From the NCBI GenBank assembly GCA_016176845.1, contig JACOWJ010000011.1:1-6298 (forward strand): a DNA stretch of 6,298 bases, read 5' to 3'. The DNA comes from Nitrospinota bacterium. Lineage in GTDB: Bacteria > 2-12-FULL-45-22 > JACOWJ01. Below, one piece after another: positions 751 to 6,298 of the stretch. The notes under the pieces were generated by a model. The model was not told the DNA's origin and ran no database searches. It saw only the letters and a program-made list of their open reading frames with translations. Within the stretch, counting starts at the first letter, position 1. Every line of letters begins with the position of its first letter. The translations under genes were made by a program, and so were the position numbers.

Positions 751-1932
751 TTACCGCCCGCTAAAGTATTCCTTTGGGGTGAAAGGAGACATGGCCCGGA
801 GTCGATCCACCACCTTGGGCAAATGATCCAAAATGTAATCCACCTCGGCTTCTGTGCTCGATTTCCCCAGTGCAAAAAGCAAAGAGCCATGGGCCTGTTC
901 TTCGGTAAGGCCGATCCTGAGCAAAGTCCGTGAAGGCTCCAATGTCTTGGAAGTACAGGCGGAGCCCGTGGCAGCAGCAACCCCGAGCATGCTCAGGCTA
1001 AGGATCAGGGATTCTCCCTCGATATAGTCGAAGCGGAAATGGGCATTGTTCGACAGGCGTCGCGTGGGATGCCCATTCAAGTAACTGTTTCGGATCCGGC
1101 CCGTGACCCCTTCGATGAGCTTATCCCGCAAGCGGCTGAGCCTTTGTGCTTCTCCTTCCAACTCTTCGCGGGCCATTTCGGCGGCTACGCCCAGTCCTAC
1201 AATCCCGGGAATATCCTCCGTCCCCGACCGCAGTCCAAACTCCTGTCCCCCTCCCTGCATTACCGGGATCACCCGGGTCCCTTTCCTCACGTAAAGGGCG
1301 CCCACGCCCTTGGGGCCGTAAAGGTCATTGGCCGAGAAGGAGAGGAGATCGATCTTCTCCCGCTCCACGTCAATGGGCACCTGACCCACAGCAGCTACGG
1401 CATCCACATGGAAGTAGATGCCCCGAGAGCGAGCAAGCTCTCCAACCTCGGCGATCGGCTGGAGGGTCCCGATCTCGTTGTTGGCGTATTGCAGGGTGAT
1501 GAGGATCGTCTCGTCACGGACTTCCGCGGTAAGCCGCTCAAGGTCCACCATGCCGAACCGGTCGACCGGCAGGTGAGTGATCTTAAAGCCCTGATTCTCC
1601 AAGAACTTACAGATATTGAGGACCGAAACGTGCTCGATCTCGGAGGTGATGACATGATTCTTTCCGCGGGCCCGTAAGGCAACCCCTTTAATGGCGAGGT
1701 TGCTCGATTCGGTCGCCCCAGACGTGAAGAGGATCTCCTCGGGAAGGCGGGCGCCGATCAGCTGGGCCACCTGCTCCCTGGCCCGCTGCAAGGCTTGTCG
1801 CGGCTCCCCGCCAAAGAGATGGAGGGAAGAGGGGTTGCCAAAATGCTTCAGAAAATAGGGCCTCATGGCCTCCAGACACCTGGCTTCCAGGGGCTTGCCT
1901 GCACTATAATCCATATAGATCCCATCGTCCAT
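751..1932 (-). CDS. iscS: IscS/NifS-like class V aminotransferase with Asp replacing the PLP lysine
   Basis: A 393-residue member of the cysteine desulfurase family; such enzymes take sulfur from L-cysteine as a persulfide using PLP. Numbered from the ATG at 1932, it keeps the start signature IYMDYSAGKPL, GATES (72-76), the PLP-stacking histidine (H101 in SEIEHVSVL), ANNEIG (150-155), HVDA with D177, RSGT, and the catalytic-loop cysteine C326 in GSACTSKTLEPS. The canonical SxHK lysine segment reads SFSANDLYGPKG: the Schiff-base lysine is D203 (codon 1324-1326) and the preceding histidine is N202. The glutamine that contacts the PLP hydroxyl in IscS is A180. Length and ends match IscS (about 400 residues), so this is not decay. 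As I recall, Archaeoglobus fulgidus IscS also has Asp here. ATG 1932 fits the family N-terminus and follows a purine-rich GGGGAAGG; ATG 1968 adds 12 unrelated residues and lacks a ribosome binding site. It lies 160 bases downstream of tusA on the same strand, probably one operon. Whether it is active is unknown. Confidence 0.9.
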   Translation of the reverse strand: MDDGIYMDYSAGKPLEARCLEAMRPYFLKHFGNPSSLHLFGGEPRQALQRAREQVAQLIGARLPEEILFTSGATESSNLAIKGVALRARGKNHVITSEIEHVSVLNICKFLENQGFKITHLPVDRFGMVDLERLTAEVRDETILITLQYANNEIGTLQPIAEVGELARSRGIYFHVDAVAAVGQVPIDVEREKIDLLSFSANDLYGPKGVGALYVRKGTRVIPVMQGGGQEFGLRSGTEDIPGIVGLGVAAEMAREELEGEAQRLSRLRDKLIEGVTGRIRNSYLNGHPTRRLSNNAHFRFDYIEGESLILSLSMLGVAAATGSACTSKTLEPSRTLLRIGLTEEQAHGSLLFALGKSSTEAEVDYILDHLPKVVDRLRAMSPFTPKEYFSGR

Positions 1933-2092: not shown

Positions 2093-2368
2093 TTACTTGA
2101 CCTTCCTTACCAAGAACCGATAATGATGGTTTTCTCGAGACAGCTTCAAGAACTGCTGGCCTACCCGGTTGGCCCATTTGGGGATATCTTCCGCCGAGCC
2201 GGGGTCGTCGGCCATCACCTCAAGAATCTGGCCCACGGTCATCTTTTCCATCTCCTTGCGGGTCTTCAAAACCGGCTCGGGACAGAAAAACCCTATCGCA
2301 TCGAGGGTGCGGTCCGGCTGGATGACCTCCAGGGACACTTCCTGTTTGATTTCCGGCCTCTCTTCCAT
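2093..2368 (-). CDS. tusA: TusA-family sulfur carrier (SirA/YedF-like)
   Basis: A 91-residue TusA-family protein. These small cytoplasmic proteins accept persulfide sulfur on a single conserved cysteine and pass it on for tRNA thiolation, molybdenum cofactor maturation or dissimilatory sulfur metabolism. The family signature is present as DAIGFFCPEPVLKTRKEM with C29 in the CPEP motif, followed by the usual amphipathic helix, the G-x-x-L-E-V-x-A-D-D-P-G strand (GQILEVMADDPGS) and the late phenylalanine-containing strand. The start is ATG 2368 because AAGGAG (2377-2382) is eight bases upstream; GTG 2377 would overlap that site. The 12 to 15 residue N-terminal lead before the first strand is slightly longer than in Escherichia coli TusA. 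A strong promoter lies about 90 bases upstream, and the IscS-like gene follows on the same strand, so IscS-to-TusA sulfur transfer is the natural hypothesis. The specific acceptor pathway cannot be read from this window. Confidence 0.92.
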   Translation of the reverse strand: MEERPEIKQEVSLEVIQPDRTLDAIGFFCPEPVLKTRKEMEKMTVGQILEVMADDPGSAEDIPKWANRVGQQFLKLSRENHHYRFLVRKVK

Positions 2369-2456
2369 CTCCCCCACTCCTTCTCGAATCGGGTTTTTGG
2401 CTTGCGATCAAAGCCTCAACGACTATTGTTGACTATTCTGCTAGTGATCCCTACCT

Positions 2457-3449: not shown

Positions 3450-3595
3450 CTTGACAATGTTAAATTCGAGATTGCTTCGTCGCTTACGCTCCTCGCAATG
3501 ACAGTCGGTGTATCTTCCGTGTCATTGCGAGCGAAGCGAAGCAATGCGAGCGAAGCGAAGCAATCTCCACCTGAGGGAAATCTAACATTGTCAAG
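3450..3595. mobile_element. MITE-like element with 13-bp terminal inverted repeats
   Basis: The 146-bp element begins with CTTGACAATGTTA (3450-3462) and ends with its exact inverse TAACATTGTCAAG (3583-3595). The tetranucleotide ATAA occurs immediately outside both ends (3446-3449 and 3596-3599), consistent with a target-site duplication, although a 4-base match can arise by chance. Inside is a second pair of inverse segments: GAGATTGCTTCG...CGCAATGAC (3468-3502) and GTCATTGCGAGCG...CAATCTC (3521-3567), the ATTGCGAGCGAAGCGAAGCAATCTC-type repeat widely dispersed in environmental bacterial genomes. It has no coding capacity, so mobilisation would need a transposase elsewhere. It starts 15 bases after the pilZ stop and ends five bases before the coaE Shine-Dalgarno. 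Its transcript would fold into a strong stem and could terminate pilZ or affect coaE. Confidence 0.75.
3527..3564. repeat. exact 19-bp tandem duplication inside the MITE-like element
   Basis: GCGAGCGAAGCGAAGCAAT occurs twice without a gap (3527-3545 and 3546-3564). Only the right arm of the inner palindrome is duplicated, so it is now longer than the left arm (3468-3502). This looks like a later slippage event in this copy. Confidence 0.9.
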
Positions 3596-6099: not shown

Positions 6100-6298
6100 A
6101 TGTCCCTATCGATCCGGGTCCTGATTGTAGACGACCACGCGGTAGTCCGCGCCGGGCTGCGCATGCTCCTCGAGAGCGGGCCGGGGATGCGCGTGGTCGG
6201 CGAGGGGCTCAAGAACCGGCAGATCGCCCAGCGCCTCTTCCTCAGCGAGACGACGGTGCGCCACCACCTCACGGCGATCTTCGCCAGGCTGGGGGTGG
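6100..6298 (+). CDS. NarL/LuxR-type response regulator, internally deleted, cut by the window end
   Basis: The frame opens at ATG 6100, 12 bases after the kinase stop, with GAGG (6091-6094) as ribosome binding site, and stays open to the window edge (66 codons). Residues 1-35 ([20 protein letters not shown], ending MRVVGE) are the start of a NarL-type receiver, including the acidic pair D11 and D12. Residue 36 onwards ([31 protein letters not shown]) is the second half of a LuxR-type helix-turn-helix. The phospho-acceptor Asp, the conserved Thr/Ser and Lys, the linker and the LTPREREVL helix, roughly 110 to 130 residues in a usual 210 to 220 residue protein, are missing, yet the join is in frame (about 6199-6207). 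The product could not be phosphorylated and probably could not fold as a receiver. It is a decayed gene or an assembly collapse; a tiny functional protein is the least likely reading. Confidence 0.85.

Follow-up and report, generated by a model that had tools for sequence, protein, structure and literature searches.

An iscS-like gene without the PLP lysine

The window analysed here, a 6,298-nucleotide stretch of a Nitrospinota bacterium contig, carries an iscS-like gene and, directly upstream of it, a tusA-like sulfur-carrier gene, the two being separated by 124 bp with no dsrE between them (Table 1). Downstream of the iscS-like gene lie an inverted repeat and then a Nudix-type gene on the opposite strand, and no iscU is found there. 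The true start of the iscS-like open reading frame may be Met13 (codon 1930-1932). Profile searches identified its product as a full-length type I IscS/NifS homologue (TIGR03402, 5.8e-153), which also passes the NCBIfam model NF002806, "IscS subfamily cysteine desulfurase", with 307.6 bits against a cut-off of 304.

Table 1. Features of the iscS-like locus in the window, with codons of individual residues, and loci of extended IscUs elsewhere in the clade
Feature	Position	Strand	Support or detail
iscS-like gene without PLP lysine, 405 aa	751..1968	-	ORF translation; Pfam Aminotran_5, 6.6e-69
Lys341 codon (GSACTSK), three residues past the loop Cys, typical of the clade	946..948	-	
Cys338 codon, loop cysteine (Cys328 in E. 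coli, Cys321 in A. fulgidus)	955..957	-	TGT
Asp215 codon at the PLP Schiff-base lysine position (Lys206 of E. coli IscS)	1324..1326	-	GAC
Asn214 codon, replacing the His before the lysine	1327..1329	-	AAT
Ala192 codon, replacing the PLP-contacting Gln (Gln183 of E. coli IscS)	1393..1395	-	GCT
Asp189 codon, pyridine nitrogen contact, kept	1402..1404	-	78/78 in clade
His113 codon, PLP-stacking His, kept	1630..1632	-	78/78 in clade
tusA-like sulfur-carrier gene, 94 aa, directly upstream of iscS	2093..2377	-	PF01206, 1.5e-24
Cys32 codon of TusA (CPxP), sulfur-carrying cysteine	2282..2284	-	60/60 in TusAs of clade operons
IscU with full thioredoxin-reductase-like domain	L135, L072, L103, L044, L097		
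IscU with NAD(P)-binding-like half only	L100, L106, L133, L138 and others		

The initial annotation had pointed to the replacement of the Schiff-base lysine by Asp, of the preceding His by Asn and of the PLP-contacting Gln by Ala in an otherwise intact IscS framework with its loop cysteine, and every one of these codons was confirmed in the sequence. The substituted segment, residues 210-221, reads SFSANDLYGPKG, while the open reading frame is full-length and retains Cys338, His113 and Asp189. The protein thus has the similarity and the loop cysteine of a type I cysteine desulfurase and lacks the PLP lysine and the equivalent of Gln183. The loop cysteine of IscS serves as a persulfide carrier or as a cluster ligand. 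In a comparison set of 64 Lys-bearing homologues, chosen for having Lys, both the Gln and the His occur in 61 of 64, so Asn214 and Ala192 are real departures. Since the K206A and Q183E variants of E. coli IscS are each without activity (PMC9978102), the window protein probably has no desulfurase activity of its own, and by analogy the release of sulfur from L-cysteine by this protein is unlikely. A second IscS of the host genome (G000:C2, L001), 51% identical to the window protein, is normal and reads SAHK.

Several minor features accompany the locus. AT-rich inverted repeats at 623-737 (AATTGAAAATT type) and 4-52 (AAGTTTTAGG type) flank the Nudix-type gene, the former sitting between this gene and iscS. 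A REP-like element, CATTGCGAGCGAAGCGAAGCAATC, is present in two tandem copies at 3523-3565 and in 41 copies within 2 mismatches in the host genome, with 0 for the reversed control. At 6100-6298, right before a scaffold gap, a response-regulator open reading frame has almost no receiver and reaches a LuxR-type helix-turn-helix after ~35 residues; past the gap, apparently the same stretch follows in another frame, and the open reading frame is probably an assembly scar.

Spread and ancestry of the lysine-less family

The best match to the window protein among solved structures is IscS of Archaeoglobus fulgidus (PDB 4eb5, 1.6e-131; 53% identity over the full length). The Asp that the initial annotation had mentioned for this protein is indeed present in 4eb5, and entries 4eb5, 4eb7 and 4hvk share with the window protein the Asn-Asp pair, Ala for Gln, the loop Cys and the Lys three residues beyond it, while entry 4r5f of the same protein has Lys at the Asp position. 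A. fulgidus IscS is reported to be devoid of desulfurase activity, with Asp for Lys (PMC7585200), and its Cys321 to be a ligand of the [2Fe-2S] cluster on IscU in an (IscS-IscU)2 structure (PMC7585200, PMC9769115). Like the window protein, IscS1 of Methanosarcina acetivorans (MA0808) is reported to be missing the PLP lysine; its gene is clustered with iscU1 and with four further genes that were called unknown, TusA and DsrE being unnamed (PMC7585200). With both proteins reported as lysine-less, substitution of this lysine is a known phenomenon.

Further relatives were searched for in a species-genome collection of public genomes with the DNA pattern D-x-[LIMFV]-[ST]-x-[SA]-x-x-(codon NNY)-[LIMFV]-YGPKG. 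As the codon NNY excludes Lys, its absence from the matches is by construction, which is not the case for the prevalence of Asp, the replacement of Gln by Ala, the kept Cys or the gene neighbourhood. At least 117 stretches matched, and every one among those listed is a type I IscS homologue; Asn-Asp was found in 81 of the 117 matches listed, the rest being mostly His-Asn, His-Arg, Gln-Asp, Asp-Leu and His-Thr. Among the matches listed, the archaeal hosts are Bathyarchaeota, Methanosarcinales/ANME, Thermoplasmata, Asgard archaea, Hadesarchaea and Nitrososphaeria, and the bacterial hosts are WOR-3/Stahlbacteria, Aminicenantes, Eisenbacteria and deltaproteobacterial MAGs. This spread of the lysine-less clade over many archaeal and bacterial phyla is new here.

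In an alignment of 78 full-length proteins from the Asn-Asp clade, Gln-Asp and Asn-Asn variants included, Asp occupies the lysine site in 77 and is preceded by Asn in 75, and Ala stands for the PLP-contacting Gln in 73. The loop Cys, the stacking His and the Asp at the pyridine nitrogen are each found in 78/78, and the phosphate-binding residues of the PLP pocket are conserved. A further clade-typical residue is the Lys three positions past the loop Cys (75/78), where Lys206-bearing IscS most often has Gly. This residue conservation, together with dN/dS values of 0.08-0.18 in four close pairs, identifies the lysine-less IscS as a maintained protein family; it rules out a sequencing error or a decaying gene, and because Asp is evidently not random at the site, the conserved subfamily proposed in the initial annotation holds.

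In a tree built without the trait columns, the Asn-Asp clade (42 rows, among them the window protein and A. fulgidus IscS) formed one side of a branch with an SH-aLRT of 92. Its neighbours there are Lys-bearing IscS proteins whose genomes contain a Lys-less copy as well. In a quick tree the Lys-less rows fell into three groups, namely the Asn-Asp clade and two further ones; a tree joining all Lys-less proteins had a higher likelihood and was not rejected (AU p 0.87), so that the lysine may have been lost once, the site then diverging in part of the branches. The three groups are accordingly not taken as several independent losses, and no convergence is claimed.

Sister groups without the lysine have Asn, Arg, Thr, Ser, Leu or Gln at this site. 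One such group (L082, L113, L119, L123, L125, L130), mostly from deltaproteobacterial MAGs, combines SAHN, SGHN or SAHH with GSACSSED; tusA and dsrE were not found nearby, and iscU is adjacent in at least five of the six loci. Lys-less IscS proteins with SAHTMYGPKG occur in archaea (L037, L088 and L134; Hydrothermarchaeota, Pyrohabitans and a euryarchaeal MAG). Their genes directly follow tusA, and iscU was not found next to them.

Genes beside lysine-less iscS

Neighbouring genes were counted per locus, with kinship among the loci ignored. Among 70 Asn-Asp loci with enough flank, tusA, whose company with S-A-N-D homologues the initial annotation had singled out for counting, precedes iscS on the same strand in 55; dsrE is adjacent in 40, either gene is present in 57, and in about half of the loci dsrE lies between tusA and iscS. 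In a slightly different set of 70, picked by downstream flank, iscU is adjacent in 55; a single-domain query was used for this count, as a profile including fused IscUs also picked up reductase domains. In an unprejudiced clustering of all neighbours, the three largest families were those of iscU, tusA and dsrE. In the operons of the clade, the sulfur-carrying cysteine is kept in 60/60 TusA and 43/43 DsrE proteins.

Lys-bearing cysteine desulfurase copies in the genomes of 40 Lys-less loci served as an internal control. Of these, only 1/36 has tusA upstream (a divergent type-II-like enzyme), and dsrE is adjacent in 1. The corresponding Fisher values for the tusA/dsrE link to Lys-less iscS are 1e-16 and 5e-15 with relatedness ignored, while a test of independent pairs yielded 2-3 such pairs, too few for significance. 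Most genomes of the clade also contain a normal IscS, so their sulfur may come mainly by another way than the Lys-less protein. The conserved block tusA-dsrE-iscS-iscU of the Lys-less clade is reported here as new. Within the literature searched, TusA, DsrE and IscU occurred together in a single paper, apparently a work on protein persulfidation, and an earlier description of the block elsewhere is possible. The same order, with an iscS reading NDLGGPRG, is found in three genomes from the phylum of Methanoperedens (L293-L295), which may be Methanosarcina-like.

The window itself shows the Asn-Asp and Ala substitutions and tusA on the same strand, and it lacks the downstream iscU and the intervening dsrE of the clade. 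Its TusA is 46-53% identical to the best-matching TusAs of clade operons, which the host's two other TusAs resemble less closely. In the recovered host genome (1.53 Mb, 68% complete), iscU (NifU_N), dsrE (DrsE_2) and SufB/D were not found; this is weak evidence of absence, since the contig begins with the first base of the window and roughly one third of the genome was not recovered. Another genome of the phylum (G001) holds a Lys-less IscS of another type, with Ser at the site and iscU adjacent; its locus L241 agrees at every one of 3,044 bases with L126, "Nitrospinae bacterium RIFCSPLOWO2_12_FULL_45_22".

Of two Lys-less iscS copies in the A. fulgidus genome (G216, a single contig of 2.18 Mb), the product of the first is 100% identical to the solved IscS and that of the second 87%. 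Both copies are of the Asn-Asp type and closely flanked by dsrE on the upstream and iscU on the downstream side, and tusA is found at the second copy only; the window differs in being bacterial, in having tusA directly upstream and in having neither iscU nor dsrE beside the gene. Among the other class V matches of A. fulgidus, the strongest is a glyoxylate/pyruvate-type transaminase, two are SepCysS, and two further ones look by eye like decarboxylases. No Lys-bearing cysteine desulfurase was found among the class V matches checked, all but the weakest, a result that is new here and is consistent with a cysteine-independent sulfur supply in this organism. Downstream of the second Lys-less iscS-iscU pair, and separated from it by a few genes, is one of the SepCysS genes (L277:2994-4181, minus strand); class V matches that are weak and similar in score occur within ~4 kb of Lys-less iscS in G133, G231 and G142.

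The adjacent IscUs of the Asn-Asp clade are frequently extended. In 5 of 55, ~315 extra residues match pyridine nucleotide-disulfide oxidoreductase (Pfam, on L135), and in 17 of 55, 122-144 extra residues resemble the NAD(P)-binding part only, with weak Pfam matches. In contrast, IscUs beside Lys-bearing IscS have no or short extensions, except for some with 145-177 extra residues, which we infer to be NifU-type. The thioredoxin-reductase-like extension often seen on iscU of the clade is new here. An attractive reading of these sequences is that the reductase-like tail may act as a reductant for the persulfide.

A candidate sulfur relay and its alternatives

Textbook Fe-S assembly starts from cysteine. 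For the window protein we lean, with modest confidence, towards a different scheme, in which a dead IscS of the A. fulgidus type would relay sulfane sulfur from TusA and DsrE through Cys338 to IscU. This sulfur would stem from an inorganic source or from some other compound than cysteine; TusA, often together with a DsrE protein, would carry it and hand it to loop Cys338 of the IscS-like dimer. The dimer would act as both relay and docking partner, passing the sulfur from Cys338 to the scaffold IscU, where it would become Fe-S cluster sulfide; the loop cysteine could perhaps also be a ligand of the cluster as it grows, a role reported for the (IscS-IscU)2 structure of A. fulgidus. As an IscS without the lysine should not make persulfide from cysteine, the TusA encoded next door is a likelier donor than acceptor. 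We infer the flow from TusA through IscS and on into IscU, the origin of the sulfur and the assembly of Fe-S clusters in this way in the host. The individual contacts have precedents: DsrE3A transfers thiosulfate sulfur to TusA in Metallosphaera (PMC4175335), and the E. coli IscS dimer binds IscU and TusA at once, forming heterocomplexes (PMC11302665). The initial annotation had offered a subfamily with altered PLP binding or, alternatively, a persulfide carrier or scaffold that makes no sulfur from cysteine itself; its conserved subfamily stands, and the carrier or scaffold fits best, given the inactive E. coli mutants, the A. fulgidus IscS reported as inactive and the neighbouring tusA, dsrE and iscU.

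Counting against the scheme, the window has neither dsrE nor iscU beside iscS, and most genomes of the clade keep a normal IscS as well; gene neighbourhood, moreover, proves neither a transfer of sulfur nor its direction. The scheme would also not be strictly needed for cluster assembly, since in E. coli without IscS sulfide alone allows IscU to build clusters anaerobically (PMC13015791). This observation also favours a rather unlikely alternative, in which the protein would be only a ligand and assembly platform that binds IscU and contributes its loop cysteine, with free sulfide as the sulfur source and with TusA and DsrE acting elsewhere or in regulation. Such a role was suggested for IscS1 by the M. 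acetivorans authors (PMC7585200), and the cluster ligation by A. fulgidus Cys321, as reported for the IscS-IscU structure (PMC9769115), is in keeping with it; however, it leaves unexplained why tusA or dsrE with intact cysteines stand beside 57 of 70 Lys-less iscS genes yet hardly ever beside a Lys-bearing one.

The conserved stacking His, pyridine-nitrogen Asp and phosphate-binding residues, the near-invariant Asp of the Asn-Asp clade and the residual PLP binding of E. coli IscS K206A (PMC9978102) would all suit a real PLP enzyme of altered chemistry, which would hold PLP or PMP without a Schiff base and use Asp215 as a base on cysteine or another substrate. We nevertheless consider this improbable, as E. 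coli IscS can dispense with neither the Lys nor the Gln (PMC9978102), A. fulgidus IscS is reported to be inactive (PMC7585200), and the Asn, Arg, Thr, Ser, Leu or Gln of the sister groups argues against one catalytic residue. Sulfur might also flow the other way, with the protein being loaded by canonical IscS or by persulfides and feeding TusA pathways such as tRNA thiolation, molybdenum cofactor synthesis or SepCysS-dependent Cys-tRNA formation. E. coli TusA does take sulfur from IscS (PMC2854127), and SepCysS is encoded a few genes downstream of one A. fulgidus Lys-less copy; yet iscU is the commonest neighbour and a canonical desulfurase to load the protein was not found in A. fulgidus, which makes an exit route of this kind very improbable.

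The proposed relay through TusA, the IscS-like dimer and IscU resembles several known systems in part. Canonical IscS, NifS and MisS share with the window protein the fold family, most of the PLP pocket and the loop cysteine, whereas the equivalents of Lys206 and Gln183 are missing from the latter and its gene neighbourhood is another one. In the relays of sulfur oxidisers such as Metallosphaera cuprina, DsrE and TusA likewise exchange sulfur (PMC4175335), but these are tied to Hdr-like complexes, while TusA and DsrE of the Lys-less clade are tied to an IscS fold and IscU. The minimal iron-sulfur (MIS) system, MisS-MisU, is a comparable minimal iscS-iscU pair (PMC12442378); MisS is described as a cysteine desulfurase, whereas the Lys-less clade is without its lysine and has TusA and DsrE in addition.

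A. fulgidus IscS has been a structural oddity with an unsettled sulfur source; it now belongs to a widespread clade of archaea and bacteria, and the block with TusA and DsrE provides a testable candidate for this source. Tentatively, and with slightly more doubt than confidence, the clade could represent a distinct and widespread archaeal and bacterial Fe-S route, with sulfane sulfur from TusA/DsrE, a Lys-less IscS as relay and dock and an IscU that is often fused to a thioredoxin-reductase-like domain, a route on which A. fulgidus would depend and which would give other hosts a second, separately fed line. The clade also carries a warning for annotation, as current models call Lys-less proteins cysteine desulfurase: NF002806 does so for the window protein, and the Lys-less protein at L151:1407-2591 (plus strand) reaches 564.2 bits with the NCBIfam model TIGR03402, "cysteine desulfurase NifS". 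Since this exceeds the curated cut-off of 530.75 bits, automatic annotation would name the L151 protein an active desulfurase.
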